Positions 3,542 through 36,037 of a stretch of DNA of 48,863 bases are shown one piece after another (the first letter of the stretch is position 1; each line of letters opens with the position of its first letter). A program made the translations under genes and the position numbers. Origin of the DNA: a virus; IMG/VR virus record IMGVR_UViG_3300047361_000192, positions 1-48,863 of that record; one strand, given 5' to 3'. A model generated the notes under the pieces. The model worked only from the letters and a program-made list of their open reading frames with translations. It had not been told where the DNA came from and did not search any database.

Positions 3542-3684
3542 TAGTTTTCTTTCTTTAGTGTAAATGATCCATCTTTGTTATCTATCCACAATAGTGTGTC
3601 ACCTGGATGCCAATCTAATTTATCCATGAGTTCATCAGGAAATGTAAGCACACCTTCATCATCAACAGGAACAATATATTTCAT
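3541..3684 (-). CDS. AbrB/MazE-like small protein, 47 aa
   Basis: ATG at 3684 to TAA at 3541 translates to MKYIVPVDDEGVLTFPDELM with a second half LDWHPGDTLLWIDNKDGSF. The order strand, turn, P-D-E-L helix, L-x-W-x-x-G-D-x-L strand is the swapped-hairpin pattern of AbrB/SpoVT DNA-binding domains and MazE-type antitoxins. A single domain of this size usually binds DNA as a dimer. It is flanked by TAATG overlaps on both sides. No toxin partner is evident nearby, so a transcriptional or structural role is as likely as an antitoxin role. Confidence 0.65.
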   Translation of the reverse strand: MKYIVPVDDEGVLTFPDELMDKLDWHPGDTLLWIDNKDGSFTLKKEN

Positions 3685-4196
3685 TAAATCCAGTCAGGTT
3701 TGCGGTTCGGTAGTCGTAGGTAGTTGCTAGATACCCATGGTTTAGAAGCAATATACATTTTATATGCTGTCAGTGTATCTATGCTATCATCAAACTTGTA
3801 CTCTTCAGGCATTGCACGAACAAATGGAGTATGATTATCCCATTTAACATAAGGAATGATCTCATCAGCAACAAGGAGAGTCTTGAAACAAGTATGGCAT
3901 TTACCATATCGATTGAAATACTCTTCACATAATGCTATACCATGAGCAAGCAACCATCTAGAGTTCTCTACAGTCTCATTAGCCCATTTAGTACAAGGAT
4001 GATTACGGAATGCACCTTTATCAGTAGCATATGGATTACCATCTGCTTTAGGTATTGTGCCATAACCATGACCCCACTTGTCAGAGCATACAATAGATAG
4101 CATCTGACATGTTTCTAATGGCATCTTGACAATGTGCTTGTCAGGTAAACACTCTGCTGATTCAGTCGGATGTTGACTCGTCACGAAAATATTCAT
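3684..4196 (-). CDS. Conserved phage protein (MNIFV family), 170 aa
   Basis: I start at ATG 4196 (MNIFVTSQHP), because members of this phage family that I recall begin MNIFV and the longer frame to 4226 would overlap the preceding oxygenase further. Signature stretches are DKHIVKMPLETCQML (about residues 19-33), NHPCTKWANETVENSRWL (65-82), and the MPEEYK segment near residue 130. Conserved His, Asp, Lys and Cys positions suggest an enzyme. The family occurs in many phages and has no established activity that I know of. It overlaps the oxygenase end by 35 bases and the AbrB-like start by one base. Confidence 0.65.
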   Translation of the reverse strand: MNIFVTSQHPTESAECLPDKHIVKMPLETCQMLSIVCSDKWGHGYGTIPKADGNPYATDKGAFRNHPCTKWANETVENSRWLLAHGIALCEEYFNRYGKCHTCFKTLLVADEIIPYVKWDNHTPFVRAMPEEYKFDDSIDTLTAYKMYIASKPWVSSNYLRLPNRKPDWI

Positions 4197-4860
4197 CAGG
4201 TAAGTACGCACTCCTATTAATAGCAAGATTAAAACTGAATGTCAACCTCATCTTATTACGATTCTCCTTACCCACCTTTACAGCATGTTTCAGATGTGGT
4301 GGGAACAACAATATATGTCCATCATGAATGTATGATGTCCAGAGTTCTTCGTAATAGTCACAGATCTTACTATCACTATGCTTAAACAATTGCTGTGTAC
4401 GCATGGAAAGATCTGTTTTCTGGAATGTCAACTGTCCTTCACAACAATTGCTTGCAAAGTATATGCCAGACCAGTATGGGTTTAAGTTATCAGGTGACAA
4501 ATGATCGTGTGGTTCTTGACCATGTTCTTCATAGTATGCATTATACCAGAAGCCGTTGTATCGTATGTCAGCTGGCATATTATAGCAAGCAAGGACTTTC
4601 TTGCAATGCTCTAACACATCTCTCTTAACATTCTCCGCAGTCTCATTATCAATATACGGATCATCCTCCTTAATATTAGGGAATGATGTATTGAGAGGAG
4701 TAAACCATACCTCTGGTTTTCTAACTACCCTATCAAATGACTTCCATTCATATGATTCATGCTTTGGGAATTTAGTAACTATCAATGGCGTTGCAAAGAT
4801 AGGTATAGTAGCAATTTCTACTGTCTCACCACTTATATCATTACTAAATTGTTCCATCAT
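4162..4860 (-). CDS. 2OG-Fe(II) oxygenase-like protein, 232 aa
   Basis: This looks like the phage 2-oxoglutarate/Fe(II) oxygenase group with the SGxYY(F) signature (Pfam 2OG-FeII_Oxy_5 type). The centre reads EPHDHLSPDN followed by YWSGIYF, with the first iron ligands at H118/H120. The distal ligand lies in FPPHLKHAV (H192) and the 2-oxoglutarate-binding Arg in RLTFSFN (R205). Such enzymes hydroxylate protein side chains or small molecules using O2 and 2-oxoglutarate. It starts with tandem ATGATG overlapping the upstream stop. It is the most divergent of five oxygenases in this window, and the substrate is unknown. Confidence 0.75.
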   Translation of the reverse strand: MMEQFSNDISGETVEIATIPIFATPLIVTKFPKHESYEWKSFDRVVRKPEVWFTPLNTSFPNIKEDDPYIDNETAENVKRDVLEHCKKVLACYNMPADIRYNGFWYNAYYEEHGQEPHDHLSPDNLNPYWSGIYFASNCCEGQLTFQKTDLSMRTQQLFKHSDSKICDYYEELWTSYIHDGHILLFPPHLKHAVKVGKENRNKMRLTFSFNLAINRSAYLPDEYFRDESTSD

Positions 4861-5126
4861 AACTTGACGCCCTGGGTACTATTGACAACTCTAGTGTATA
4901 GATGTAGTGTACCCTCTTGCTCACACTTAAGATGCCAACGTGTCATAAGACAGACACCATCTTTAGTGCCACCAGTCATCATGTTGCGACCTGCCTTTGT
5001 CATCGTAGAATACAGTCCATACCTAGTTTCCCAGACGTAGAAGCATTCATCAATAAGTTCTGCACCTTCGGGTACAATAACTTCAGTCACTTGCTCTCCA
5101 TTGGTACTGTCCATTGTGGACTCCAT
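4857..5126 (-). CDS. Conserved cyanophage-type protein, 89 aa
   Basis: ATG at 5126 (MESTMDSTNGEQ) is preferred; extending to 5159 would need a TTG start. The core FYVWETRYGLYSTMTKAGRN and LMTRWHLKCEQEG resembles a short protein I recall as conserved in T4-like cyanophages, without a function. The composition suggests a compact alpha/beta fold with several aromatic residues. It ends with TGA overlapping the ATG of the oxygenase gene, so the two are probably co-translated. Confidence 0.65.
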   Translation of the reverse strand: MESTMDSTNGEQVTEVIVPEGAELIDECFYVWETRYGLYSTMTKAGRNMMTGGTKDGVCLMTRWHLKCEQEGTLHLYTRVVNSTQGVKL

Positions 5127-5295
5127 AATTAGTTTTCTTTGATTGTTGGTGATCCTCAACCAATTCTAGAATATGTTGAGAGATTTGTGATGCTGTGTCG
5201 TCGTCCCAATCACTATCATCCAATGTCCTGCCCATGTTGAACACTTCGTGCAGCTTTAGGTTAATGGAGTCGATCAACATGTCATGTTTAGTCAT
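5083..5295 (-). CDS. Hypothetical helical protein, 70 aa
   Basis: ATG at 5295 opens MTKHDMLIDSINLKLHEVFN followed by an acidic stretch (DDSDWDDDTASQ) and a helix ending VEDHQQSK. It overlaps the next gene by 44 bases in another frame; the last ten residues may therefore be constrained by both. There is a 29-base gap before it with no clear promoter. No recognised domain. Confidence 0.5.
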   Translation of the reverse strand: MTKHDMLIDSINLKLHEVFNMGRTLDDSDWDDDTASQISQHILELVEDHQQSKKTNYGVHNGQYQWRASD

Positions 5296-5324
5296 GGCAA
5301 TAAATGTAAACTAGAGTATATAGA

Positions 5325-5510
5325 TCAGAATTCACGATTCCTTCTATCATCTAGATACGAAATGATATCAGATCGCCACTCCATTAGTTCATTGTAGCAC
5401 TCTTGGTTGTGAGCACATGCTCGAAGTCTATTGTCAGGCTTCAATACACTCTCATAAAAGAGATTGAATGCATCACGTCGTCTTTGTTGCTTAAGTTCTT
5501 CGTCAGTCAT
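5325..5510 (-). CDS. Hypothetical charged protein, 61 aa
   Basis: The ATG at 5510 overlaps the end of the upstream CP12-like gene by eight bases and gives MTDEELKQQRRRDAFNLFYE. The product is highly charged and helical, with Cys at CAHNQECYNE and an arginine-rich tail (DDRRNREF). A longer frame upstream would overlap the CP12-like gene more and has poor composition. Function unknown; tight linkage to the CP12-like gene is the only context. Confidence 0.55.
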   Translation of the reverse strand: MTDEELKQQRRRDAFNLFYESVLKPDNRLRACAHNQECYNELMEWRSDIISYLDDRRNREF

Positions 5511-5733
5511 CGAATACCTTACACATAGGGGAACCAGGGTGATCATCACAGAACTTATCTAGCACCTTATCTTGGTGACGATTCTGTGGATCAGCAATCT
5601 TACCTTCTGTATTAGGATCCCACTCATCAGGTGAGTGTTCTTCATTACAATGCAGATCTACCTTATACTCATTCCACTTATCATTTGCATCATAAAGTGG
5701 ATCGGAGGGATCTTTTTGGCGTGGTTGTGACAT
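5503..5733 (-). CDS. CP12-like protein (C-terminal GAPDH-binding tail), 76 aa
   Basis: The last residues are FCDDHPGSPMCKVFDD. This matches the C-terminal loop of CP12, where two Cys eight residues apart (here C62 and C71), a Pro four after the first Cys, and a final C-[RK]-x-[YF]-D-D motif form the redox loop that binds glyceraldehyde-3-phosphate dehydrogenase. CP12 shuts down the Calvin cycle by bridging GAPDH and phosphoribulokinase, and cyanophages are known to carry it. The usual N-terminal Cys pair and AWD-VEEL motif are not visible; that half is charged, with one Cys. AAGGAC precedes the ATG. I am fairly sure of the tail, less sure of the function. Confidence 0.65.
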   Translation of the reverse strand: MSQPRQKDPSDPLYDANDKWNEYKVDLHCNEEHSPDEWDPNTEGKIADPQNRHQDKVLDKFCDDHPGSPMCKVFDD

Positions 5734-5736
5734 GAT

Positions 5737-5916
5737 TCAGCAGTCCTTATTTTTGAATTGTTTACGGCATAACTTAACTTCTTTGAGTTCATCCTTAATC
5801 ATCTGATAGGCATCTTCAGGTGATATTTTCTTTGCCATTTCCATAGCAGTGATGATCTCTACTCTTGTTCCAAAGTGCTTGAGTGCTTCTTCAAAACAAT
5901 TTAGTTCTTCGTACAT
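5737..5916 (-). CDS. Conserved-type helical protein, 59 aa
   Basis: ATG at 5916 to TGA at 5737 gives MYEELNCFEEALKHFGTRVE then AMEMAKKISPEDAYQMIKDEL. Three helices with regular hydrophobic spacing are likely, and the composition is typical of a soluble phage protein. It lies three bases upstream of the CP12-like gene in the same direction, overlapping the gene before it by 16 bases. I recall similar MYEEL-FEEAL-HFGTR proteins in cyanophages but know no role. Confidence 0.6.
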   Translation of the reverse strand: MYEELNCFEEALKHFGTRVEIITAMEMAKKISPEDAYQMIKDELKEVKLCRKQFKNKDC

Positions 5917-6221
5917 GATAACTCCTTCTCTGCTTTTGCTTCCGCTTGCTTGCGCTTACGAGCATCTTCAACTACACTGTAGTCAACACTATCAGGGTAA
6001 ACACGGTTCAGAGCATCACAGATGCCCTTGAGAGAGTCCTCACGCTTCTTTGACTGTAGACCCTTGGCACGTAGTTCCTGACGTGTTGGAATGTCACCGT
6101 GAGGTGCTTGAGCACGAAAGAAAGGAGCGAGGCAGGCAGCGTCATGAATATTGAGCGCAGAACGATCAGGCAATGAACCTTGCATTATGTAGGGGGTGAC
6201 AACCCACGAATCATACAGCAT
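5901..6221 (-). CDS. Hypothetical basic protein, 106 aa
   Basis: The ATG at 6221 is preceded by AGGGG four bases away and follows the previous gene by 13 bases, so I keep it; an internal Met at codon 13 is the alternative. The N-terminal half contains ALNIHDAACLAPFFRAQAP; the C-terminal third is a Lys/Arg/Ala/Glu-rich helix (ARKRKQAEAKAEKEL), as in a ribosomal or nucleic-acid-binding tail. No domain recognised. Confidence 0.55.
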   Translation of the reverse strand: MLYDSWVVTPYIMQGSLPDRSALNIHDAACLAPFFRAQAPHGDIPTRQELRAKGLQSKKREDSLKGICDALNRVYPDSVDYSVVEDARKRKQAEAKAEKELSCTKN

Positions 6222-6234
6222 CAGCCCCTGCTTG

Positions 6235-7221
6235 TCAAGGGATCAGGGTCTCGATCTCCTTAAACTCATTGTGTGTTGTCCTAAACAATAGAATATCTAC
6301 CAATTCATTGTTCTCAAACACAAACTCAAAGTCAACTCTAAAGTTCTGCAATCCTTTCCTAAAACCATTGTCAAATACTACTTGACGAGTGTCAGGAAAT
6401 ACACTATTGATATACTTTCCATGTTCTTCTGTCAAGAAATCACCCTTTGCAGATGATAATCCATATAGATGTTCTCTTGAAATCTGTTCATCTCTCAACT
6501 CAATCTTCTCACGATTTCGTTCAGCAGTCATAACACTTCTGGTCTCTTTAACACTAGACTTTCTTTCTCTCCAGAATGCTGTATGATATTGACAGTTTAA
6601 TCTAAATGATTCTCTACCATTAGCATGGAAGATCATCTCACCGTCTAGGTATAAAGGATTTCTTTTACAATGTGCGGCAAGTCTAGACATTACTTCATTA
6701 TCAGTAATGTTATAATCTAGACCCTGACCTTGTTTCACCTTCACTGCAATAGGAGTACCAGAGATATCATACAAATAACCACAAAATGTAGCGCCTTTAT
6801 CACAACTTGGACGTGCGTCTGGATTAATGTGGTGTGTACGAATAGATTCTGTAACCTTATTGTATACCTCCCTCAAATGTGAAGTATTTGTCTCATCAAT
6901 TAGATGTTGTAAATTGCGCTGTTGATATAATGCATTGTAAGATAAATCTATACCACTCTCATAAGACAAGTGCTCATTACTATTATGATTAACACAAAAC
7001 GTCTTGTACTCGTTTTTAATAGTAGGAGCGACCTCGCTAATTAAATAATCAAATACAAAGATCTCATTCATGTTATTACGAGCATCATCTGCTATTGCAG
7101 GTTGATACTTCACATCTTTCAATGATGTGTATAACCATGGCATCATCGAACTTGTGTATAGATGCTCTTGCCTCAATACACTGTATACTTCTTTTACTGT
7201 GTAAGTGTCGGAGAAGATCAT
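6235..7221 (-). CDS. Hypothetical protein, 328 aa
   Basis: A soluble alpha/beta protein without signal peptide or membrane segment. Visible blocks are HHINPDARPSCDKGATFCGY (about 130-150), a strand-rich stretch GTPIAVKVKQGQGLDY, a basic helical region with ERNREKIELRDEQIS, and a C-terminal FRVDFEFVFENNELV. It overlaps the preceding gene by four bases (ATGA). It sits among oxygenases and may serve the same fibre-related block, but I see no catalytic motif and do not recognise the family. Confidence 0.65.
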   Translation of the reverse strand: MIFSDTYTVKEVYSVLRQEHLYTSSMMPWLYTSLKDVKYQPAIADDARNNMNEIFVFDYLISEVAPTIKNEYKTFCVNHNSNEHLSYESGIDLSYNALYQQRNLQHLIDETNTSHLREVYNKVTESIRTHHINPDARPSCDKGATFCGYLYDISGTPIAVKVKQGQGLDYNITDNEVMSRLAAHCKRNPLYLDGEMIFHANGRESFRLNCQYHTAFWRERKSSVKETRSVMTAERNREKIELRDEQISREHLYGLSSAKGDFLTEEHGKYINSVFPDTRQVVFDNGFRKGLQNFRVDFEFVFENNELVDILLFRTTHNEFKEIETLIP

Positions 7222-7571
7222 TCGTTTGATGCGATAAGTTGTCCTAGATCATTATACAATGCATAAAACACATACATCTCTGGATTAGCAACAGATGCTT
7301 GACTATCAGGGAAGTTGTCATCAAAGTAATCAAGTACACCCTGATCTAGTCTCTCAAGTTCTACAACCACATACTCTGACTGTTTCATGTCAGCAATAAG
7401 ATCTGACTCTAGCATTTTTGAGTATCGAGCAATAGATGTATTGATAGCATCAACATTGGTGCTATTGTTCCATCCAGTTACTCTAATGAACGCTAGTGGC
7501 ACTCCAGCTGTCATTGCATAACGTCCAAGAATCTCTTGTAGATTGAAGATCTGATAGTTTTGGTTAATCAT
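7218..7571 (-). CDS. Hypothetical protein, 117 aa
   Basis: The product begins MINQNYQIFNLQEILGRYAM and has a strand-helix pattern throughout, with a short acidic motif DYFDDNFPDS near residue 82. It overlaps the oxygenase before it by eight bases and the 328-residue gene after it by four, so the three are probably translated together. No family recognised and no membrane segment. Confidence 0.6.
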   Translation of the reverse strand: MINQNYQIFNLQEILGRYAMTAGVPLAFIRVTGWNNSTNVDAINTSIARYSKMLESDLIADMKQSEYVVVELERLDQGVLDYFDDNFPDSQASVANPEMYVFYALYNDLGQLIASNE

Positions 7572-8100
7572 CGATAAACAGTTTCCAGGCGACAGTGACT
7601 CTTAATCCTTTGAAGTTTCTAGTACACGGTGCAGCACAGTGTGGTATTTTACCAGGAAACAATACTGCTTTGTTTGCTTTTGGGAATACACCATGCACTT
7701 CACCGTTGTTGATGTAGAAATTAGTTTGCCCACCTAGCATTGTATGCCATCTAGGGTTTACATATAACAATAGTGTTCTTCCGTTGTCGGTCTGTGCATC
7801 AACGTGAACTGATCCATCTTGACCGAAAGTATGCCCATTAGCATACGTATGTTGTAGTTTAAATCGTGTGTTTAGTTTCTTCTGTATCTTATTTAGAAGA
7901 TGATCGTAGAAGAATGGATCTTCAGCAAAGTCTATCTTCCAGAATGGTGTGCAACTATGATACTCTGGATGCTCTTTACCTAGCGAGGTGTGACCAAAGG
8001 TCCATCGCGATCCGTGTCCTGTCTTATTCTGAATCTCTTGAAAATCTTCTTCATCGAAGAAATCAAAATATTGTACAACATCATCAGTAGTATATGTCAT
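7564..8100 (-). CDS. 2OG-Fe(II) oxygenase, 178 aa
   Basis: The iron and cosubstrate residues are readable: SVHVDAQTD gives the H99-x-D101 pair, LFPGKIPHCAAP gives the distal H154, and LRVTVAWKL supplies R167 for 2-oxoglutarate. Between them lie LLLYVNPRWHTMLGGQTNFY, the strand that follows the first ligand in prolyl-4-hydroxylase-like enzymes. The whole protein is little more than the double-stranded beta-helix, so it is probably a soluble hydroxylase. It overlaps the next oxygenase gene by four bases. The substrate is unknown; linkage to fibre genes suggests a virion protein. Confidence 0.85.
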   Translation of the reverse strand: MTYTTDDVVQYFDFFDEEDFQEIQNKTGHGSRWTFGHTSLGKEHPEYHSCTPFWKIDFAEDPFFYDHLLNKIQKKLNTRFKLQHTYANGHTFGQDGSVHVDAQTDNGRTLLLYVNPRWHTMLGGQTNFYINNGEVHGVFPKANKAVLFPGKIPHCAAPCTRNFKGLRVTVAWKLFIDD

Positions 8101-8744
8101 GGTCTATCTACAAATTCCCTAATCATATTCATCCTTGCGGATTCAAGTTTCTCTAGTTGTTCGTGACTAACGTCATCAGCAACATCATTGATTGCATGTT
8201 TAAGATCAATAATATTCTGTCTCATGGCAGATTCTTTAATGTAACTCTCTGCCCACCCAATAGCAACCTTTCTATTACCTGCAGTGACTTCATTTACTTT
8301 ATGCCATAGACCAGTATTATATAAAATTACTGATCCTTTTGGTGGTTTGAATTCATGTTCAGTATTGCCAACACGAATGACTAACTCTCCACCCTCATAT
8401 TCATCAGGGTCATTGAGAGCTACAGTGAAACTAAAGTGTGGTGCAATACCAGCGATAGGGAATGCATCTAAATGCCATTTATAAAATCCACCAGTCTTAT
8501 ACCAGACAAAGTATGGTTGTCCAGATCTCCTGATTAGAAAATCAGATAATCCTTTTTGTAGAGGAGTATACAGAGTTTGCATACATCTCTTGTAGTCTGG
8601 GTCATCGTAATTAAGTACAGAACTTTTCTTTACACCTTCTCTGGGATTACTATCACTCCCACAGTGAAATCTATGCTCTGTGTATACAGAAAGTATATTG
8701 CCTGACTCTGCAGGAGTCAGAACATCATTCAGCAGCCATATCAT
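8097..8744 (-). CDS. PKHD-type 2OG-Fe(II) hydroxylase, 215 aa
   Basis: This is closest to PiuC/PKHD-type hydroxylases. GGFYKWHLDAFP contains H91-x-D93; DEYEGGELVIR is the usual strand after the ligand; GSVILYNTGLWHKVNEV gives H148; and NRKVAIGWAES gives R158 for 2-oxoglutarate. The C-terminal 50 residues form a helical tail. The usual length for such proteins is about 220 residues. The gene overlaps the 178-residue oxygenase downstream and the upstream chaperone-like gene by 20 bases, so these are one translational unit. Confidence 0.85.
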   Translation of the reverse strand: MIWLLNDVLTPAESGNILSVYTEHRFHCGSDSNPREGVKKSSVLNYDDPDYKRCMQTLYTPLQKGLSDFLIRRSGQPYFVWYKTGGFYKWHLDAFPIAGIAPHFSFTVALNDPDEYEGGELVIRVGNTEHEFKPPKGSVILYNTGLWHKVNEVTAGNRKVAIGWAESYIKESAMRQNIIDLKHAINDVADDVSHEQLEKLESARMNMIREFVDRP

Positions 8745-9696
8745 TTAAATCTTCCTCATCATAAAATGTTGAATAATCGATACCGTGTTCAACGAAGTCT
8801 TCGACTCGCATCAACTTCATTAAATCTTGAACTCCTTGTGCTACCACTCTCTTGGCGTTAGTAGATCTATCTCTCCATTCAATGACAGTTGTTAGTCTAT
8901 CATTGACATAATCTTTAGATGCATCAACGTCTCTTTCAGTCCACAACCTCGCATCATCTATATCAAGATTATATTCAATTGCGTTACCAGCAGGATCTAC
9001 GTTATCAGGATATGCAATTCTATAAATTGATGGGTCAATAGGCCATTTAATAGCCTTGATTGCCTTGAAGAGATCCAGAGGATCATCATACTTTTTATTG
9101 AATGCATCCATGCTACGGAGTGCCTTTCTCCACTTCTTCCACATCTCTTTCTCACCTTCGTAAGAATCTTCGATATCAGGTAGGACACGCCAGTCAGAAC
9201 CTTTGAGCATTGCTGTTCTTTCAACTAGCCTCTTATTCATAGTGGCATCATAAAACATCTGCTCTTCAGAAATTTTAGTAATCTTATCTCTGATCTGTCT
9301 TTCTCTCACAACATGAGAGGCAGCAGTAAGATCTACTACTCTTTGACGCAACTCTTTAATTTGATCTGTAGTAGCACCATTGAAAATATATTGAATAGAG
9401 GTTGACTGATCAGTCGCAAAATCATATTTGTATTTTCTACGTTGGATGAGTGCAGTATCATCACTATAGAAAAGAACGTGCTCTAGTTCATCAACTGTAT
9501 CTGTATGGAATATATCACCAACAACCTCGTTCTTAAATCTTTCCATGATATCAGGAAGGATTTTAATTGGTTGATTGATTTTATTACCATTAGGCAAGTC
9601 CAAAATATGAGTAGAATCGATAACGAGACTGTTCAGTAAATCAATCTCCATTATCACCTTGTTAATATTATCTACCAATTCGATGCTATCAGCCAT
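8725..9696 (-). CDS. Tail-fibre-assembly/chaperone-like protein, 323 aa
   Basis: The centre contains RLVERTAMLKGSDWRVLPD followed by MWKKWRKALRSMDAFN. This is the signature of phage tail assembly chaperone and tail fibre assembly proteins (R-x-x-x-L-x-x-S-D-W-x-x-L-P-D ... W-x-x-[YW]-R-x-A-L-R). The N-terminal 120 residues are helical and strand-mixed, and a C-terminal part includes DARLWTERDVDASKDYV. Placement immediately after the fibre genes and between two oxygenases supports a role in fibre folding or attachment. It could also be a minor structural protein; the match is limited to about 50 residues. Confidence 0.6.
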   Translation of the reverse strand: MADSIELVDNINKVIMEIDLLNSLVIDSTHILDLPNGNKINQPIKILPDIMERFKNEVVGDIFHTDTVDELEHVLFYSDDTALIQRRKYKYDFATDQSTSIQYIFNGATTDQIKELRQRVVDLTAASHVVRERQIRDKITKISEEQMFYDATMNKRLVERTAMLKGSDWRVLPDIEDSYEGEKEMWKKWRKALRSMDAFNKKYDDPLDLFKAIKAIKWPIDPSIYRIAYPDNVDPAGNAIEYNLDIDDARLWTERDVDASKDYVNDRLTTVIEWRDRSTNAKRVVAQGVQDLMKLMRVEDFVEHGIDYSTFYDEEDLNDMAAE

Positions 9697-10381
9697 GAGT
9701 TTTGATATACCAACCTGTTACTATATATTTATCCTTATCACCTAAAAGGAAACCTCCCCTATGAACATGTGTTAGACCAGCAGGGAAAATAACTACTGTG
9801 CCGACTGTAGGTTTAATCCTACGTTTCTGATACATGAACTCGGTTTCACCACCATCTTCAATATCATTTAGATAAATCATCCATGTCAATTCACGAGCAG
9901 CACATTCAATTGTACCATTTTCATAGTGCCATGAGTGATATCCACCACCAGTTGGAGTTTTCTGAAACTTGATGTCAGAAGAAAACATTTTAGTCTTCTT
10001 CAATGTAGAATAGTAACAGCAATAGTGATTAGCACATGATTTCAGCATCTGGTTAATATTATTAGTATATTTTGCTGATGCATAGTTTAGCATGAATGAT
10101 CTATCATGTCTAGTAAATGCAGACCCATACATGGCAGAACCTTCCATGATGTTAATCTCGCCTTCTGAAGCTCCTAGATCACCTTGATCTTCATCATCTT
10201 GGTTCAGAACACTAGCAACATCTTCATTGAAGACTCTATCACCATATGTGACAAGTTGTTGACATAGAGCTGCTGGTACGAAATTTTCCCACACACCAAT
10301 AAAATCTGTAAAATCACACTTGGTGATTTTTGGATTTTCCATTAGTTCAAGTGGACGATAAGGAGCGATTTGTTGTGTCAT
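9689..10381 (-). CDS. 2OG-Fe(II) oxygenase with H-x-E ligand set, 230 aa
   Basis: A prolyl-hydroxylase-like protein. GGGYHSWHYENG places the first ligands at H152-x-E154, followed by LTWMIYLNDIEDGGETEF, FPAGLTHVHRGG (distal His 205 or 207) and DKYIVTGWYIK, in which K218 is the probable 2-oxoglutarate contact. Most relatives use H-x-D; Glu in place of Asp is uncommon but is shared with the oxygenase at 35459-36037. The N-terminal 130 residues, including a Asp/Glu-rich loop (QDDEDQGDLGASEGE), form a cap. It starts 16 bases after the 1183-residue fibre gene. Confidence 0.85.
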   Translation of the reverse strand: MTQQIAPYRPLELMENPKITKCDFTDFIGVWENFVPAALCQQLVTYGDRVFNEDVASVLNQDDEDQGDLGASEGEINIMEGSAMYGSAFTRHDRSFMLNYASAKYTNNINQMLKSCANHYCCYYSTLKKTKMFSSDIKFQKTPTGGGYHSWHYENGTIECAARELTWMIYLNDIEDGGETEFMYQKRRIKPTVGTVVIFPAGLTHVHRGGFLLGDKDKYIVTGWYIKTHG

Positions 10382-13979: not shown

Positions 13980-13987
13980 TATTTATC
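13980..13987 (-). promoter_or_regulatory. Late-promoter-like box GATAAATA
   Basis: On the minus strand the sequence GATAAATA lies 32 bases upstream of the ATG of the 1183-residue fibre gene and overlaps the stop of the preceding paralog. It differs from the T4 late consensus TATAAATA at one base. It would give that fibre its own late transcript. Confidence 0.5.
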
Positions 13988-15344
13988 ACATCTCTCTAAC
14001 ATCTTGGAATGTACCACCATCAACTTCAACTTGAATAGGATAGTTGGATTTAATCTCCACAGGGATGTCTACATCCTCAACAACAATTTGTTCACTAGTA
14101 ACTATTGCATCAGGTGTAATGACTGGAAGTTCATCACGTAGTTTATCTTCTGATGATGGAATGTCAATAGCATCTGGTATTCGATCAATATTAATAGGAA
14201 CTGTAACTACTTTGATAGATTGAAGTCCACCAGCTCCCTCACCATATAACTCATATCTGATAGAAGATGGTCCTCTATCATGATACGCAACAGTATCTGT
14301 ATATGTACCACTAGCAGCAAAACCTAGATCCACAACTCTATCAGTTTCACTTAAATCAAGATCATACTCTTTAATCCTCAATTCATATGTTGTAGTTGCT
14401 CTCACTTGTTCATGGGATAATATAATATCATCACCATAATTTACTGATAGAGGACCAGCAAGATCAACTTCTGGTGGTTGTATTACAGTGATAGTAATTT
14501 GTTGACTATCAGTTCCACCTAGACCAGATGCAGTTGCAGTATATGTAGTGGTGATTGTCGGAGAAATAATTTGATTACTTACTAAATTAGTTGATCCAAT
14601 TCCAGGAGTGATAGTCATGGTGCTAGCATCTCCAGTAGTAGTCCATCTCAATCTAGTGGTTTCTCCAATAACAATTGTAGAATTGTCAAGCGTTAATGTT
14701 ACTTGAGGAGGTTGATATACGTACAATACAACAGAATTACTTCGATTACCGCCATATCCATATCCTGTTAACGTATAAGTCGTTGTACTAGTAGGAGATA
14801 CCGTAATACTACCAGATGTACTAACAGACCCAATGCTAGTAATTGATCTAGAATAAGTATTTGATGTACTCCAATAAAGAGTTGCAGATCCTGGATTTAT
14901 AAACGAAGTTGGACTAACAGATATGTTTACATACGGTGGATTGAAATAACATGTACCATCATCTTGTTGTGCTCTTGGATTATAGTTTACTGCGTTTGGA
15001 TTAGTACATCCCCTGATTATTGGTGGTGGACAAGTACCACTAGCCATGCCAGTATGCCTACCCCTTGACTGAACTTGACCATATTCACCACTGGATATAC
15101 CACCCCTTTTGACCATATTTGTGATAGTACCATATACCTGCTGTCCAGTACCATATACCCACGTACCTACGTATCCTTCTACACCAGCCTGTTCTCCGTA
15201 TCTACCAAACAATGACATATATGCATATGTAACTTGATTGCGGTAGGTATCATTAAAATCTCCACCGCCACCAGGGAACCATATACTATAGTTGGTGACA
15301 CATGATCCACCGTAATTATTCCAATGTCCAATACGATATGGCAT
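13986..15344 (-). CDS. Adhesin paralog 1, DUF4214-like tip, 452 aa
   Basis: First (leftmost) of five tandem paralogs. The N-terminal ~110 residues contain VTYAYMSLFGRYGEQAGVEG, resembling the DUF4214 repeat of bacterial surface proteins. Next is a GCTNPNAVNYNPRAQQDDGTC motif, a cysteine-bearing linker known from surface proteins of marine bacteria. Then come Ig-like domains joined at Pro-Pro junctions (YQPPQV, IQPPEV), and the shared C-terminal foot AIDIPSSEDKLRDELPVI. No signal peptide. I infer a virion fibre with a variable N-terminal tip and a conserved C-terminal anchor. The start shares one base with the upstream stop. Confidence 0.75.
   Translation of the reverse strand: MPYRIGHWNNYGGSCVTNYSIWFPGGGGDFNDTYRNQVTYAYMSLFGRYGEQAGVEGYVGTWVYGTGQQVYGTITNMVKRGGISSGEYGQVQSRGRHTGMASGTCPPPIIRGCTNPNAVNYNPRAQQDDGTCYFNPPYVNISVSPTSFINPGSATLYWSTSNTYSRSITSIGSVSTSGSITVSPTSTTTYTLTGYGYGGNRSNSVVLYVYQPPQVTLTLDNSTIVIGETTRLRWTTTGDASTMTITPGIGSTNLVSNQIISPTITTTYTATASGLGGTDSQQITITVIQPPEVDLAGPLSVNYGDDIILSHEQVRATTTYELRIKEYDLDLSETDRVVDLGFAASGTYTDTVAYHDRGPSSIRYELYGEGAGGLQSIKVVTVPINIDRIPDAIDIPSSEDKLRDELPVITPDAIVTSEQIVVEDVDIPVEIKSNYPIQVEVDGGTFQDVREM
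14116..14162 (-). repeat. 47-bp direct repeat in paralog 1 foot (copy 1)
   Basis: Within the sequence encoding the shared foot, 47 bases are identical to 15477-15523 in paralog 2. More diverged versions occur at the same place in the other three paralogs. Exact identity of this length is enough to support homologous recombination between neighbours. Confidence 0.85.
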
Positions 15345-16900
15345 TATAGTTCCTCTACTGGCAGATATGTACCACTATCATCAATTTCTACCTGAATAGG
15401 TTGACTTGCTTTAATTGTTACTGGAATATCTATGTCATCAATAACAATTTGTTCGGTGGTAACTTCGATATTGGGAGTAATGACTGGAAGTTCATCACGT
15501 AGTTTATCTTCTGATGATGGAATCTCAATAGCATCAGGTGTCTGGTCAATGTTAATAGGCACAATAAGTTGATCAATAGCAGTTAAACCAGCCTGTCCAA
15601 CTGCATACAAAACATATGAAATAGAGCGTGGTCCTCTATCATGATATGTAACATAATGAGTATATGTGCTATTCGCAGATTGTCCTGGTCCAAGATTAAC
15701 AGGACTTACAGGTGGTGCTGCGGTGTTATTATCCAGATCAGTTTCTAGTATTTGCAACTCATAAGTTGTTACTGCTTTCACCATCTCATGAGAAATAGTT
15801 ACGTTGTCTCCATAATTTACCACTATAGGACCATTAATCGCAACTTCTGGTGGATCAACTACAACAACTGTGACTGTTCCGCTACCAGTTCCACCAGGAC
15901 CAGAAGCAGACAGAGTATATGTGGTGGTTACTGTTGGAGAAATATTTTGGTAAGAATTTAGATTAGTAACACCAATTCCATTATCAATAGTAACTGAATT
16001 TACACTACCAGATACATTCCAACGCAGTGTTGTATTAGCACCACTAACAATCTCACTATCATCTACATTAAATTGTATACTGGGAGGTTGATAAACAGTG
16101 AGGGTCCTACTAACAGACGCATTTGTATATCCATAATAATTTCCAGTAAGAGTATATGATGTAGAAGTGGTAGGACTTACTGATTGACTTCCACTGCCAC
16201 CAACATTACCGAGACCAGTTATATTTTGAGAGGTAGAGTTATATGCACTCCATGATATTGTGGCGCTTTGTCCTCGAATAATAGAACTAGGACTAATACT
16301 CAAACTTACACTTGGAGTAGGATATGTACACCCAGAATTAACATTAGCACTTGGATTATAGTTAGAGGCATTTGGATCAGTACACCCGTATACAGTATAG
16401 TTACATCCTGTGCTGGGTTGATTTGCCCATCCGTTATAGTTAGTAGCATTGGGATCTTTGCATCCATAGACGAGAATAGGAGAATACCACGCAATACCCT
16501 CGAATACATATCCGCTAGGTGTACTACTACTAGTGTCATATCTATGGTCGCCAGTAGAACTTTTATAATATCTATAGATTGCTTGGCGATATGGTCCATT
16601 GCTCGTAAATGCCACACCAATAATACCTTCACGACGATAGTTTTGAGGAGTACCAGATGAAGTCTTGAATAGGTGATCATTGATGCTAGAACTCCAAAAT
16701 CTGTAGACATAAGACACACTTTGACCATTAATTCCAGTAGAACTCATGCCCATGAATAGGTTCCATACATTAGTTCCAGTCTGGTAGTATGCACCCAAAG
16801 ATTCTCCACCAGGATTTGAGGTATAAAAAGAATCCCCGCCAGGATTATTAGGGTTAAAAAACGAATCAAATCTATGTAGTTGTCCAGCACTTCCCGCCAT
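15344..16900 (-). CDS. Adhesin paralog 2, DUF5648-like tip, 518 aa
   Basis: The N-terminal 150 residues carry two or three repeats of the form YRYYKSSTGDHRYDTSSS followed by GYVFEGIAWY, which resembles the DUF5648 repeat found in extracellular hydrolases and lectin-like proteins. Two GC-DPNA-NYN cysteine linkers follow (GCKDPNATNYNG, GCTDPNASNYNP). The shaft has Ig-like domains with Pro-Pro junctions and the protein ends with the shared foot AIEIPSSEDKLRDE. It overlaps paralog 1 by one base (TAATG). The tip could bind a glycan; this is inference from the domain type. Confidence 0.75.
   Translation of the reverse strand: MAGSAGQLHRFDSFFNPNNPGGDSFYTSNPGGESLGAYYQTGTNVWNLFMGMSSTGINGQSVSYVYRFWSSSINDHLFKTSSGTPQNYRREGIIGVAFTSNGPYRQAIYRYYKSSTGDHRYDTSSSTPSGYVFEGIAWYSPILVYGCKDPNATNYNGWANQPSTGCNYTVYGCTDPNASNYNPSANVNSGCTYPTPSVSLSISPSSIIRGQSATISWSAYNSTSQNITGLGNVGGSGSQSVSPTTSTSYTLTGNYYGYTNASVSRTLTVYQPPSIQFNVDDSEIVSGANTTLRWNVSGSVNSVTIDNGIGVTNLNSYQNISPTVTTTYTLSASGPGGTGSGTVTVVVVDPPEVAINGPIVVNYGDNVTISHEMVKAVTTYELQILETDLDNNTAAPPVSPVNLGPGQSANSTYTHYVTYHDRGPRSISYVLYAVGQAGLTAIDQLIVPINIDQTPDAIEIPSSEDKLRDELPVITPNIEVTTEQIVIDDIDIPVTIKASQPIQVEIDDSGTYLPVEEL
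15477..15523 (-). repeat. 47-bp direct repeat in paralog 2 foot (copy 2)
   Basis: Identical to 14116-14162. The spacing between copies is 1361 bases, almost exactly one gene unit, so a crossover here would fuse the N-terminal part of paralog 2 to the foot of paralog 1 and delete one tip. Confidence 0.85.
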
Positions 16901-16902
16901 GT

Positions 16903-18573
16903 CTAGATCTCCCTAACCTCTTGGAATGTACCGCTATCATCTATCTCAACCTGAATAGGTTGATCTGCTTTGATTTCAACAGGAACATCAATATCATCAA
17001 CCACAATTTGTTCTGATGTTACTACCGCATCAGGTGTAATAACTGGTTGTTCGTCACGAAGTTTATCTTCTGATGATGGAATATCAATAGCATCAGGTGT
17101 TCTATCGATATTGATTGATACATTGAAAAGAGCAGTAGAATACAATCCAGCATCACCAATGACATATAACTGGAACAAAATAACATCTGGTCCAAAGTCA
17201 TCATAATCTGGTTGGAATAAAATGCTTCCTTGACTAGTATTTCCTGCTGGCACAGTTGTATACAAGGTCCAATCTGGATCTGGATTACCTTGACTGACAT
17301 ATTTTCTCAATAACTGTGGTGGTTCAGTAGCATTTGTTGTGCTATATGTCAGGAGTATATCATTACCATAATCAACAGATATTGGACCATTTAAGGAAGC
17401 TTCTGGAGGATACACAACCTCAACAGTAATCTGGTCTGTATCACTTCCACCAAGACCGCTAGCAACTGCCGTATATGTTGTAGTTTGTGTAGGTTGGAGT
17501 GCTATACTTGAAACAAGATTGGTCGATCCAACTCCAGGATTGATATTAACAGTATTAGCATCTCCAGTAGTTACCCACGATAAGGTAAAAACATCTCCAA
17601 CTGTAATCTGGGGTTTATCTACTGATAATATAATTTCTGGCGGTATCTTGATATCAACAGGAATACTTTGCGCTACTGTTCCACCAGGTCCACTTGCAGT
17701 TAATGTATAAGTTGCATCTTGAGAGGGAGTAAATGTACCACTACCAGAAGTAGATGATGATCCAGGTTCTGGAGTAATATTTACGCTCGAAACTGCACCA
17801 GTAACATTCCACTGCATCTGGAAAGAATTTCCAAGAATTAGTGTAGAAGGATTGATTGTAAATACACTAATCGTTGGTGGTGGATTTGTATATGATAGAA
17901 CACCATATCCGTTACCAAAGTTTCCATAACCACTGTTAGTAATCCAACCAATATCTCCATTATTATACCACCCAGAGTTGCCCCCAATACCAGCATATCC
18001 ATTAGTGGTTGTTGCACCTCCATATCCACCAGCGCCACCAGCAGTTGATCCACCACCACCACCGCCACGGTGACCAGCAGGGGCAGTTCCACCTGTTCTC
18101 CAGCTCGGAGAACTACTAGTGCCTCCACCACCAATACCACGACCAGCAGAATAATATCCACTAACACCAGTTTGGTTATCAAACCTACCAGCACCACCAC
18201 CGCCACCGACCCATGCGATGTATCTTCCTAATCCACTATCGTAAACGCCAGAAGCTCCGCCTCCGCCACCACCAGAACGGTGACCCCTACCACCACCTGC
18301 TAATGGAGAACCACCACCAGATCCACCAGGATTCTGGGGTCCTTGTCCTTTAGCACCTGCAGAACCGAGATAGAAAGTTAAATTATATGCATAAGATCTT
18401 GTTGCAATAGTAAAGTTACCTGCTCTACCAAAACCACCACGCGAATGATTCCATGTAGTAGATTGAGATCCTCCACCATTTGCTGCAGCCACTGTAAAGG
18501 TTACGTTAGTAGCATATGCTGGGACCGACCAAGTAATACTTCCAGGACTAAATTTACTAAAACTTACAGTCAT
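16903..18573 (-). CDS. Adhesin paralog 3, glycine-rich tip, 556 aa
   Basis: The N-terminal ~70 residues form a beta domain (FSPGSITWSVPAYATNVTF), followed by about 150 residues dominated by glycine runs (GGGGGGASG, GGGGGGST), which may fold as a polyglycine-II-type sandwich as in some phage receptor-binding tips. Then come Ig-like domains with NPPPT, KIPPEI and VYPPEA junctions and the shared foot AIDIPSSEDKLRDE. It lacks the cysteine linker of paralogs 1, 2 and 4. The gap to paralog 2 is two bases. Inferred host-contact fibre. Confidence 0.75.
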   Translation of the reverse strand: MTVSFSKFSPGSITWSVPAYATNVTFTVAAANGGGSQSTTWNHSRGGFGRAGNFTIATRSYAYNLTFYLGSAGAKGQGPQNPGGSGGGSPLAGGGRGHRSGGGGGGASGVYDSGLGRYIAWVGGGGGAGRFDNQTGVSGYYSAGRGIGGGGTSSSPSWRTGGTAPAGHRGGGGGGSTAGGAGGYGGATTTNGYAGIGGNSGWYNNGDIGWITNSGYGNFGNGYGVLSYTNPPPTISVFTINPSTLILGNSFQMQWNVTGAVSSVNITPEPGSSSTSGSGTFTPSQDATYTLTASGPGGTVAQSIPVDIKIPPEIILSVDKPQITVGDVFTLSWVTTGDANTVNINPGVGSTNLVSSIALQPTQTTTYTAVASGLGGSDTDQITVEVVYPPEASLNGPISVDYGNDILLTYSTTNATEPPQLLRKYVSQGNPDPDWTLYTTVPAGNTSQGSILFQPDYDDFGPDVILFQLYVIGDAGLYSTALFNVSINIDRTPDAIDIPSSEDKLRDEQPVITPDAVVTSEQIVVDDIDVPVEIKADQPIQVEIDDSGTFQEVREI

Positions 18574-19916
18574 AGCTCTCTTATGTTATACCAGACATTA
18601 GAATTATCGATCTCAACCTGAACAGGAAAATTAGATTTAACTTCTACAGGAATATCTATATCATCAACAACAATCTGTTCACTAGTAACCTCAACATCAG
18701 GGGTAATAACTGGTTGCTCATCTCTCAATTTATCTTCAATTGAGGGAATATCAATAGCATCTGGTGTTTGATCGATACTAACAGGAACGGTAACTTGCCT
18801 AATCCTTATCAATCCTCCTTGACCATTAGCAGTCATAGTAACAATAATTGCCATAGGTCCACGATTTCCCCAGACTGGAGTATATTCATATAAAGATGCG
18901 TCAGTAGAAGTAGTGAAATTATAAGTGGTATCACTATTATCTAAATCTCTCTGTATCACCTCTACATCTACACTATTTGCATTTGTTACTTCGTAAGAAA
19001 AATTAATAGTTTCCTGACCATATGGTACTACAATTGGACCACTAACTTCTAGTGATGGTGGTTGAATTACTGTTAAAGTGAGTTGTTCACTAGTAGATCC
19101 AGCAACACCATTAGCAGTAAGCGTATATGTGGTTGTCAGTGTTGGTTGTACTATTGCATTACTACTCAACAATGTCGCTCCAATGCTAGGACTGATAGTC
19201 ATAGTGCTGGCATCACCACTAGTTGACCACCATAATCTAGTATTTCCTCCAAGAACAATAGTATTTGTATCAAAATATGCTGTAATTTGTGGTGGTATAT
19301 ACACAGTCTGCTGCAAGCTCGTTGATCTACTTCCCCCATTCCATGATACTGTGAATGTATATGTGCCAGAACTTTGGGGTTGTATACTACTACTACCAGA
19401 TGTATTTACATTACCAATACCAGTTACTGTTGCACTTTGCATGTACTGTCCATAAGAAGTAGACCACGATATATTAGTGCTTTGTCCTCTGATAAGTGGA
19501 TTATTACTAGAAGTAAGATATAGTGTTGGGTTTACAACAACACAAGATCCATCATCTACTTGTGCAGATGGATTGTAATTAATTGCAGCACTGTTTGTAC
19601 ATCCATATACAGGTGTGGGACTACGATACTGACTGTTATTAATAAATCCACCATTGTTGACATATATGATCATGTCATTGTAGTCACCATCAGCTCCAGC
19701 ACCTTGTCTATCGTCAAGACCAAGTGTGTTGTTGTTTAGTCTTCGCATGGCAACATTGCCAGGACCGCTACCATTAGCAGATAGATTGTATGTTTGATTC
19801 CACCCAACATTTACAGTTCTACTACCACTATTGGGACCAATAGTTCCACCAGGCATACCATATAGGTAGTTACTGTCTCCTGCGTTTCTAGACCATGAAA
19901 TACTAACTTGTGGCAT
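18570..19916 (-). CDS. Adhesin paralog 4, calcium-loop tip, 448 aa
   Basis: The N-terminal ~100 residues include DRQGAGADGDYNDMIIYVNN. The D-x-D-x-N-D spacing followed by hydrophobic strand resembles the calcium-binding site of DUF4114 domains in cyanobacterial and other surface proteins. A GCTNSAAINYNPSAQVDDGSC linker follows, then Ig-like domains with YIPPQI and IQPPSL junctions, then the foot AIDIPSIEDKLRDE. It overlaps paralog 3 by four bases. Calcium dependence is inferred from the motif alone. Confidence 0.75.
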   Translation of the reverse strand: MPQVSISWSRNAGDSNYLYGMPGGTIGPNSGSRTVNVGWNQTYNLSANGSGPGNVAMRRLNNNTLGLDDRQGAGADGDYNDMIIYVNNGGFINNSQYRSPTPVYGCTNSAAINYNPSAQVDDGSCVVVNPTLYLTSSNNPLIRGQSTNISWSTSYGQYMQSATVTGIGNVNTSGSSSIQPQSSGTYTFTVSWNGGSRSTSLQQTVYIPPQITAYFDTNTIVLGGNTRLWWSTSGDASTMTISPSIGATLLSSNAIVQPTLTTTYTLTANGVAGSTSEQLTLTVIQPPSLEVSGPIVVPYGQETINFSYEVTNANSVDVEVIQRDLDNSDTTYNFTTSTDASLYEYTPVWGNRGPMAIIVTMTANGQGGLIRIRQVTVPVSIDQTPDAIDIPSIEDKLRDEQPVITPDVEVTSEQIVVDDIDIPVEVKSNFPVQVEIDNSNVWYNIREL

Positions 19917-21421
19917 TAGATTTGCCTCACATCATACCAGACATCACCGTTCTCGATTTCAACCTGAATGGGATAATCAGACTTAATCTCAACAGGGATA
20001 TCAATATCCTCAACCACAATCTGTTCTGTTGTAACCTCAACGTTAGGTGTGACAACAGGCGCTTCATCTCTCAACTTATCTTCAGTTGAGGGAATATCAA
20101 TAGCATCTGGTGTCTGGTCGATATTGACAGGAATAACTACTTGCTCATATGCCAGCAATCCACCATATCCATTGGCAGTAAACAAAAATGTTACTGATGT
20201 TGGACCAAAATTATCATATGCAGGAGTATATGAAAAATCTGTAATCTCAACCAGATCACCATTACTACCTGGAATAGTTACTGAAGCTTCCTGTTCTTGA
20301 CTCTGATTTGTATTAAGATATGCAGTAGTAAAACTAACACCACCAGGTACATTTGTAGCACTGACGCTAAAAGCCATGTCATCCAAATAGTCAACAACAA
20401 TTGGACCAGAAACACTCAATGATGGTGGTGGCAATACTGTTAGCACAGCAGTGTCACTACCTGTTCCACCAGCACCAGTAGCAGTTCCTGTATAAACTAC
20501 AGATTGTGTTGGTGTAACTATTTGACTACCCGTCAGGTTAGTAACACCAATTCCATTATCAATAGACATTTGACTAGCATCACCACTAACATTCCAGAAC
20601 AATTCAGCACTTTCTCCCAAAACAATAGTGTCATTGTCAAAATACATGTTAACTATTGGTGGAATTAATACCGTAACTGTAACTGTATCCTGTGTTGTAT
20701 ATGCTGGATTAATTGCATTAATTGTCCAATTTCCTGATCCTGATGGAGTAATAGCTAAAGATCCACTCGTACTTACATTACCTATTCCACTAATGTTAAC
20801 ACTATCAATATCGCCAGATGTAGTCCAGGTTAATGTAGTGGAGCTTCCTAAAATGATAGAAGAAGGATTGGCACTTATACTAGCAGCAGGTCTATCATAA
20901 GTGGTTTGATTGATATAAATCCCGCCAACATAACCTCTTCTTCTATTACCATTACCACCCTGCACTCCACCTTGTCCGATAGTCCAACCTACGCTTTGAC
21001 CACCAACAGCACCATTTGATCCTCGATAATATGTTGCGATTGACGCACCGCCGCCACCACCACCGCCAGAGTTTGGCGGACCTCGCCACTGTCCTGCACC
21101 ACCAAATCCATATGGTCCATAACCAGACGCAGCACGCAAAAACTCACCACCAGAATTATTGATCTGACCATTCCTACCATAGGAATAGTTTCCGTATCCA
21201 CCATAACCACCACGATTTAGTTCGCCAGCTCTACCACCTTGAGACCATAATCCTGTTGTGTTGAGTCTGGTATCGCCACCATTTTGAGGAATTCTACCAG
21301 CTCCAGCAAAAGGTCTAGCACCACCTCCACCACCAGCAACAGTAATATACTGGACGTATTTTACATCAGCTCTTAATGTTAAGCTACTACTATAAGTATA
21401 TTGACTGTTGTATTGAGCCAT
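19916..21421 (-). CDS. Adhesin paralog 5, second glycine-rich tip, 501 aa
   Basis: Residues 1-45 form a strand-rich N-terminus (YSSSLTLRADVKYVQYITVA). Residues 30-180 are glycine-rich with GGGGGARPFAGAG and NSGGGGGGGAS blocks, different in detail from paralog 3. The Ig-like shaft has LIPPIV and LPPPSL junctions, and the protein ends with AIDIPSTEDKLRDEAPVV. It is the first of the five to be transcribed and overlaps paralog 4 by one base. It follows the 305-residue collar gene without a separate promoter. Two glycine-rich paralogs in one array suggest they bind distinct receptors. Confidence 0.75.
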   Translation of the reverse strand: MAQYNSQYTYSSSLTLRADVKYVQYITVAGGGGGARPFAGAGRIPQNGGDTRLNTTGLWSQGGRAGELNRGGYGGYGNYSYGRNGQINNSGGEFLRAASGYGPYGFGGAGQWRGPPNSGGGGGGGASIATYYRGSNGAVGGQSVGWTIGQGGVQGGNGNRRRGYVGGIYINQTTYDRPAASISANPSSIILGSSTTLTWTTSGDIDSVNISGIGNVSTSGSLAITPSGSGNWTINAINPAYTTQDTVTVTVLIPPIVNMYFDNDTIVLGESAELFWNVSGDASQMSIDNGIGVTNLTGSQIVTPTQSVVYTGTATGAGGTGSDTAVLTVLPPPSLSVSGPIVVDYLDDMAFSVSATNVPGGVSFTTAYLNTNQSQEQEASVTIPGSNGDLVEITDFSYTPAYDNFGPTSVTFLFTANGYGGLLAYEQVVIPVNIDQTPDAIDIPSTEDKLRDEAPVVTPNVEVTTEQIVVEDIDIPVEIKSDYPIQVEIENGDVWYDVRQI

Positions 21422-35125: not shown

Positions 35126-35133
35126 TATTTATA
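35126..35133 (-). promoter_or_regulatory. Late promoter TATAAATA
   Basis: A perfect T4-type late box TATAAATA on the minus strand, 37 bases upstream of the giant fibre ATG. Just before it lies a terminator, so the fibre block from 35.1 kb leftwards is likely a separate late transcription unit. Confidence 0.75.
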
Positions 35134-35275: not shown

Positions 35276-35475
35276 TTGTTTGCCTTCTCTTCCTTCTTTT
35301 TTTGATAGTAGAGTTTGTAATATCTACGTTTCATTTCATCAATAATGTCCATATCTTCTCTCAATCCCATATATTTGAGATTTTGATAAGATCCTTCTAA
35401 CTCGCTGATGAGAAGAAGGATATTCATGGAGGTCACTGGACGACCATTAAAATTGTATTCATCCAGTGATTTCAT
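35266..35475 (-). CDS. Small helical protein ending inside tRNA-Asn, 69 aa
   Basis: The product (MKSLDEYNFNGRPVTSMNIL) has a clear two-helix core SELEGSYQNLKYMGLREDM and a very basic tail (KRRYYKLYYQKKKEEK). An internal Met at codon 17 is an alternative start. The start overlaps the oxygenase end by 17 bases. Its last two codons and TAG stop lie in the acceptor stem and first D-arm bases of tRNA-Asn, so RNase P cleavage of the transcript would remove the stop codon. I recall similar MNILLLISELEGSY proteins in cyanophages, without known function. Confidence 0.65.
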   Translation of the reverse strand: MKSLDEYNFNGRPVTSMNILLLISELEGSYQNLKYMGLREDMDIIDEMKRRYYKLYYQKKKEEKANNPL

Positions 35476-36037
35476 AGTTAAACCAACCAGTAATTATATA
35501 CTTATCTTCATTCGGAGCAACTTCGCCTCTATGAGTATAAGTCCAGTCTGCAGGCCATATCAAGGTTTTACCTTTCTTCGCTCCTACAGTTGCGTTTTGG
35601 TGATAGAACTGTGTTCCACCTCCATTTTCAACATCATTTAGATATGTCATCCAAACAAGATGTCGATCTCTCATGGGAGAACTAGCATCACACCGCTCTG
35701 TGTGCCAATCATAATACCCCTCACCTGGTTTGTACCATTGGATATTGATACCTTCGGTCAAACCCCAAGGAGCATATTCATTACACCATGGGAATTTTGC
35801 GATATATTGATCAGCACACGAAATTAATTGATTTAGATATCGCATGATTATAGGAAATTGTCGCTGTTCTGAAGGAAATACAGAGAGATCTGTGGACTTT
35901 TTACCCACTTTTCCTCTGCTGCCATATACAGTACCAGGACCGCGATTCATACTTGAGAAACGAGACTCATGAAAGAATTTAATGAGATCATCACAGACAG
36001 AAATGTCTTTAATGTAAGTTTCTAAAGCGAATTGCAT
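35459..36037 (-). CDS. 2OG-Fe(II) oxygenase with H-x-E ligand set, 192 aa
   Basis: A prolyl-4-hydroxylase-like enzyme. EGYYDWHTERCD gives H112-x-E114, LVWMTYLNDVENGGGTQFY is the following strand, ADWTYTHRGE gives H169, and EDKYIITGWFNYE gives K179 for 2-oxoglutarate. The same H-x-E and DKYI-TGW layout is found in the oxygenase at 9689-10381, so these two are paralogs, although their N-terminal caps differ. It lies between tRNA-Leu and tRNA-Asn and just upstream of the giant fibre unit, which makes fibre protein a reasonable substrate guess. Confidence 0.85.
   Translation of the reverse strand: MQFALETYIKDISVCDDLIKFFHESRFSSMNRGPGTVYGSRGKVGKKSTDLSVFPSEQRQFPIIMRYLNQLISCADQYIAKFPWCNEYAPWGLTEGINIQWYKPGEGYYDWHTERCDASSPMRDRHLVWMTYLNDVENGGGTQFYHQNATVGAKKGKTLIWPADWTYTHRGEVAPNEDKYIITGWFNYEITG

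Follow-up and report, generated by a model that had tools for sequence, protein, structure and literature searches.

A conserved fibre-linked cassette of predicted 2-oxoglutarate oxygenases and a chaperone-like gene with late promoter motifs in a T4-like Synechococcus phage fragment and its relatives

Comparative analysis of a linear 48.9-kb IMG/VR fragment from a T4-like Synechococcus phage that infects marine cyanobacteria revealed a conserved cassette in which three predicted 2-oxoglutarate (2OG) oxygenases and a chaperone-like gene are linked to the tail fibre genes and bear late promoter motifs. The best explanation of this arrangement is that the cassette hydroxylates a fibre protein, to which we assign a probability of roughly 60% from gene context and sequence. 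A fibre-linked late modification of protein is well supported by context. More tentatively, at somewhat below even odds, the three unlike oxygenases around the chaperone would form a dedicated late fibre hydroxylation line, so that the virion's receptor-binding end would depend on host O2 and 2-oxoglutarate. The entire stretch of DNA analysed (48,863 nt) is referred to below as the window.

Organisation and conservation of the cassette

All five oxygenase ORFs named in the original prediction were present in the window, on the minus strand, and all passed Pfam cut-offs (Table 1). Scores against PF13640 (cut-off 27) were 41.5 bits for oxyA, 53.2 for oxyB, 30.4 for oxyC and 44.2 for oxyG, and the ORF at 4162 matched PF13759 with 32.4 bits, again above the Pfam cut-off. 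The terminal collar fibre gene is followed on the coding strand by a 15 nt gap and then by oxyA, from which the genes for oxyA, the chaperone-like protein, oxyB, oxyC, PHROG 4883 and PHROG 4851 run as one string with overlaps of 4–20 nt. The nearest isolate, S-CAM1, shares this gene order, all five oxygenases included.

Four oxygenases had been proposed to lie directly behind the fibres, and this holds for oxyA, oxyB and oxyC but not for the gene at 4162, with several small genes intervening between it and the cassette. Relatives of the latter were found among the phage records only in S-CAM1, AG-345-P14 and S-SCSM1, and the S-SCSM1 relative adjoins a nucleotide-sugar gene and is not fibre-linked; the 4162 gene was therefore excluded from the cassette. 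The fifth oxygenase, oxyG, does adjoin the giant fibre as proposed but belongs to a tRNA cluster, where a tRNA gene immediately precedes it, whereas a late motif of its own precedes the giant fibre. oxyG is probably outside the transcription unit of the cassette. The idea that all five oxygenases make up one system is accordingly not supported.

Table 1. Features of the fibre and oxygenase region, in coordinates of the window.
Feature	Position	Strand	Basis
Giant tail fibre, 3788 aa	23723..35089	-	PHROG 4527
Five paralogous adhesins (13986, 15344, 16903, 18570, 19916)	13986..21421	-	PHROG 2155 for three scanned
Terminal collar-domain tail fibre (term), 1183 aa	10397..13948	-	PHROG 4924 short tail fibre; Pfam Collar PF07484
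oxyA, PF13640 oxygenase, prolyl-4-hydroxylase-like fold	9689..10381	-	Pfam, profile, AF2 model
Tail fibre assembly chaperone-like protein, 323 aa	8725..9696	-	PHROG 4697
oxyB, PF13640 oxygenase, PiuC/YbiX (PKHD-type) kind	8097..8744	-	Pfam, NCBIfam
oxyC, PF13640 oxygenase	7564..8100	-	Pfam
PHROG 4883 gene, after oxyC in the string	7218..7571	-	PHROGs
PHROG 4851 gene, end of the string	6235..7221	-	PHROGs
oxyG, PF13640 oxygenase among tRNA genes, 5' of giant fibre	35459..36037	-	Pfam
PF13759 oxygenase outside the conserved cassette	4162..4860	-	Pfam
Late promoter motif ATAAATA before giant fibre	35126..35132	-	
Late promoter motif ATAAATA, 38 nt before terminal fibre start	13980..13986	-	
Late promoter motif ATAAATA in oxyA 3' end, 36 nt before chaperone start	9726..9732	-	

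Conservation was evaluated by tblastn against 50,697 phage records. The chaperone was found in 51 of these, and nearly the same records had relatives of oxyA at 46% identity or more. The common order in 18 complete phages was giant fibre, gp12-like fibre, collar protein, zero to six adhesins, terminal fibre, oxyA, chaperone, oxyB and oxyC, and it was kept even though the proteins are only about 28–60% identical between phages. These 18 phages were picked by their chaperone rather than by their oxygenases and were searched genome-wide for PF13640 and PF13759. Of the 156 oxygenase genes obtained, 45 were located in the interval from -1.0 to +1.3 kb around the chaperone, where 2.6 would be expected, and 18 were located no more than 2.5 kb 5' of the giant fibre, where the expectation is 2.0. 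Neither count was reached in 20,000 rotations, although the phages share ancestry and the counts are hence not independent trials. The conserved synteny may be due in part to shared descent. The slot 5' of the giant fibre often holds oxygenases of different kinds in these phages.

IMG/VR was then scanned with an oxyA alignment and with single chaperones, as a 16-sequence chaperone alignment was too divergent for the scan. The oxyA alignment returned 586 relatives, and the loci of the best 80 of these were used for counting. In 78/78 loci that could be read (two end at contig edges) oxyA directly follows the terminal fibre, and in 76/76 (four contig ends) the chaperone comes directly after oxyA. 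Next comes oxyB in 66 loci or PHROG 4883 in 6, and oxyC stands behind oxyB in all 59 readable cases. Both oxyB and oxyC are missing from six loci, a joint absence which suggests that the pair works together. An additional oxyA-like or oxyB-like gene was present between adhesin and terminal fibre in two loci (L066 and L072). The majority of S-WAM2-type chaperone loci have no oxyA, while seven carry it in the identical slot. As the fibre and chaperone are kept without cassette oxygenases in Sf-FR1 and in most S-WAM2-type phages, the cassette oxygenases are not essential.

The cyanophage late promoter is reported as NATAAATA (PMC2984593), and this motif was found at the cassette roughly 30–50 nt before start codons, as is characteristic of T4-type late genes. 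The window has four ATAAATA sites, each of them on the coding strand, and three of the sites precede the genes for the giant fibre, terminal fibre and chaperone by about 36–43 nt, a distance measured to the start codon from the motif's first base. Within the best 80 of the 586 IMG/VR loci the motif was counted 145 times on the coding strand versus 6 times on the other; it lies no more than 60 nt from the chaperone start in 75/76 loci and 29–39 nt before the terminal fibre in 32/74. The chaperone-side motif falls on the oxyA codons that encode DKYI, a segment of the active site. This segment is coded xAT-AAA-TA in 78/78 readable oxyA genes compared to 8/72 other [DN]KY sites, the latter drawn from the same oxyA genes and their neighbours, and on this account the codons look constrained by the promoter. 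The formal P value is inflated by relatedness. A scan for the sigma-70 consensus gave nothing beyond chance. Of the late fibre modification system originally envisaged, the fibre linkage and the lateness are thus upheld by synteny, enrichment, gene overlaps and motifs, along with a prolyl 4-hydroxylase-like oxyA, whereas the proposed Pro-Pro target is not.

Predicted properties of the cassette proteins

In a profile search of oxyA against all PDB sequences, prolyl 4-hydroxylases (P4Hs) were the sole matches (E 6e-7). The AF2 model of oxyA (pLDDT 84) was nearest to PHD2, P. putida P4H, an algal P4H and the chlorella virus collagen prolyl hydroxylase at Z scores of about 19–20, with SnoN and 3dkq, a putative oxygenase from bacteria, scoring within 2 Z units of the prolyl hydroxylases. 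The active site is composed of H152-x-E154, H207 and K218, and the facial triad and basic 2OG-binding residue are intact in 78/80 orthologues. The iron motif reads HxE in place of HxD in 78/78 orthologues with a readable motif. The D315E variant of PHD2 was among the structural matches, meaning that an HxE site is at least structurally tolerated in the P4H fold; as oxyA nevertheless lacks the HxD motif it is termed P4H-like and not P4H. Judged by the fold of the model, proline would most likely be the side chain acted upon by oxyA.

Both oxyB and oxyC have a complete HxD...H...R motif, and the triad together with the basic 2OG-binding residue is intact in 73/75 and 62/62 orthologues, respectively. 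oxyB scored 113.5 bits against the NCBIfam Fe2+-dependent dioxygenase (YbiX/PiuC) models, missing the equivalog cut-off of 143, and by its sequence is related to the YbiX/PiuC PKHD hydroxylases without being an equivalog. The best NCBIfam match of oxyC was the FlmC family 2OG-Fe(II) oxygenase model NF052475 at 63 bits, where the cut-off of 240 is far above. A literature search on the role of FlmC returned nothing.

The chaperone-like gene noted among the oxygenases was confirmed as a member of PHROG 4697, 'tail assembly chaperone' (E 7e-85). The protein scored 22.8 bits against the Pfam tail assembly chaperone family PF16778, below the cut-off of 26.6, and a short segment of it matches tail fibre assembly proteins in unrelated phages. 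Its AF2 model had no significant match in the PDB; a likeness to the Hsp70 substrate-binding domain (best Z 4.8) was not trusted.

Taken together, fibre hydroxylation by the cassette would proceed with new fibre chains held by the chaperone during modification, while the oxygenases would consume host O2 and 2-oxoglutarate and hydroxylate side chains before assembly. The substrates would be the terminal fibre and/or the adhesins. The modification might tune stability or receptor contact and would be dispensable in some lineages.

Candidate target residues and alternative explanations

The five adhesins of the window have a common Ig stalk, Pro-Pro junctions and differing N-terminal tips. The Pro-Pro enrichment that had been noted at the Ig junctions is real within the window, with 19 dipeptides compared to 9.3 in composition-preserving shuffles (P 0.0008) and Pro-Pro at 10/10 C-terminal junctions, two per adhesin; no enrichment over shuffles was found in the giant fibre, the collar protein or the terminal fibre. 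Hydroxylation of these dipeptides by the oxygenases, as originally proposed, would suit the prolyl hydroxylase-like oxyA and the result of a co-occurrence survey in which all 49 phage records with the adhesin (tblastn, 50,697 records) also had the chaperone and oxyA. The reverse relation fails, however, as the cassette occurs without this Ig-stalk adhesin family in S-H9-1, ACG-2014h, S-RSM4 and seven IMG/VR loci, with S-H9-1-type loci reading oxyA, chaperone and oxyB in the absence of adhesins. Furthermore, Pro-Pro is found at only 103/179 (58%) and 78/182 (43%) distinct junctions at the two C-terminal Ig positions in cassette-bearing relatives, even though one junction proline is near-invariant in the stalk alignment (176/179 and 177/182), a pattern that a structural hinge would produce, and several adhesins of cassette-bearing phages have no Pro-Pro at all. 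Pro-Pro as the target is consequently unlikely. The junction proline may still be a candidate, the dipeptide as such not being conserved in the alignment.

Pro676 of the terminal fibre was considered as a target, being present in 86/88 cases with oxyA and 0/10 without, and was rejected as it fails a within-lineage test. It would still be the best residue-level candidate, weakened by the S-WAM2-type loci L149 and L165, in which oxyA is present and Pro676 is missing from the terminal fibre. The proline and Pro-Pro content of S-WAM2-type terminal fibres did not differ by oxyA presence. Collagen-like G-X-Y repeats were likewise rejected as a prolyl hydroxylase target, as just Gly-rich stretches were seen, both with and without oxygenases.

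The structures nearest oxyA include B. anthracis P4H and the EF-Tu complex of P. putida P4H. On this basis translation factors of the host or phage could be the substrates, EF-Tu being the target of P. putida P4H, and late translation of very long proline-containing fibres would be aided. This is just as improbable as the Pro-Pro target, since it leaves the tight fibre-chaperone placement unexplained and the giant fibre is not rich in Pro-Pro.

A metabolic role, either in drawing down 2-oxoglutarate or in modulating the host nitrogen response, is put forward by Sullivan et al. 2010 (PMC3037559); the clustering would then be due only to the location in a variable region. Each of the 18 phages does carry 4–13 such oxygenase genes, the majority outside the chaperone region, but a gene order and chaperone overlap that stay fixed although the sequences have diverged to low identity, together with the late promoter motifs and three adjacent unlike active sites, make a metabolic role of the cassette decidedly improbable. 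Least probable of all is DNA or RNA repair, whether AlkB-like as suggested for Syn9 (reported in PMC2984593) or by a nuclease after the PHROGs and RefSeq name of oxyC, 'DNA endonuclease V': no AlkB-type 2OG domain was matched in Pfam at E 0.1 in the oxygenases scanned, oxyC has just PF13640 and the related PF13661, and the true pyrimidine dimer glycosylase domain PF03013 is carried by a separate ORF (3684–4226) and not by oxyC, so that the name is wrong.

Relation to known systems

In marine cyanophages, oxygenases rank with the most common 'auxiliary' genes, and no substrate is reported for them in the open literature searched. A conserved fibre cassette points to a specific substrate class, fibre proteins, that is testable in cultured phages. 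If hydroxylation of fibres by the cassette holds true, enzymatic modification of phage host-recognition organs would be tied to the oxygen and nitrogen state of the host.

The cassette enzymes are of the same superfamily as the cyanophage 2OG oxygenases that are treated as auxiliary metabolic genes in the accessible text of Sullivan 2010 (PMC3037559), the S-SCSM1 and S-CREM1 papers and Phold 2026 (PMC12774648), none of which describes a fibre-chaperone cassette in that text. EGLN3-like phage oxygenases, with one from S-H9-1 shown, are reported in the Phold paper. No report of an oxygenase-chaperone fibre cassette was found in the open literature, to which the search was confined. ORF23 of S-TIM4, a 2OG gene mutated in host adaptation (PMC6224464), was considered as a counterpart and set aside, as it lies beside baseplate genes and outside a cassette of this kind.

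Among cellular enzymes, oxyB is matched by the NCBIfam models for YbiX/PiuC and differs in its fibre context, while the FlmC family model is the nearest to oxyC, yet with a score well under its cut-off. The chaperone-like protein shares with chaperones of the PF16778 family its position behind a fibre and the short segment, but is unlike them in its length of about 320 aa, its long extra domains and a gene interleaved with oxygenases. Finally, oxyA has in common with the P4Hs (PHD2/EGLN1, P. putida, B. anthracis, Chlamydomonas P4H-1 and PBCV-1 vCPH) its fold and the facial triad plus 2OG-binding lysine, in keeping with its PDB sequence matches, whereas it is set apart from them by an identity of 16–22%, by HxE instead of HxD and by the location of its gene inside a phage fibre string.

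Phycobilisome-like segment of the giant fibre

Residues 134-181 of the 3788-aa giant tail fibre match the Pfam Phycobilisome family PF00502 significantly (E 1.3e-10, 41.9 bits against a cut-off of 22.2). The matching segment is duplicated, and each of the 18 complete phages compared has relatives of it in its giant fibre.

Oxygenase genes, their names and neighbours

Extra oxyA-like and oxyB-like genes, resembling two oxygenases of the fibre-chaperone cassette, were observed in two IMG/VR loci (L066:1155-1793 and L072:3879-4475), where they are inserted in the interval between an adhesin and the terminal fibre. The third cassette oxygenase, oxyC, is named 'DNA endonuclease V' in PHROG 274 and RefSeq, and PHROG 2297 and PHROG 3531, with the names DNA endonuclease and ferrochelatase, likewise match oxygenases of the window. 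The PF13759 oxygenase gene at 4162-4860 overlaps, at its 3' end, an ORF with a pyrimidine dimer DNA glycosylase domain (Pyr_excise). Synonymous sites of the oxyA active-site codons underlying a late promoter motif are apparently fixed.

Features of the window
Feature	Position	Strand	Remark
Pyr_excise ORF	3684-4226	-	
oxyC	7564-8100	-	
Late promoter motif	9726-9732	-	in oxyA active-site codons
Five adhesins	13986-21421	-	named by lower coordinate
Gly-rich N-terminal tip	adhesins 16903, 19916	-	
DUF5648 N-terminal tip	adhesin 15344	-	
DUF4114-like N-terminal tip	adhesin 18570	-	
Cys motifs, GCTDPNAxNY kind		-	among the differing adhesin tips
Giant fibre	23723-35089	-	
CpeT-like antenna protein gene	36196-36777	-	adjoins tRNA cluster
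GIY-YIG-like ORF, weak	38386-39327	-	close to baseplate genes

Adhesin tips

One Ig stalk is common to the five adhesins while their N-terminal tips differ, an arrangement that resembles a set of swappable receptor-binding heads.
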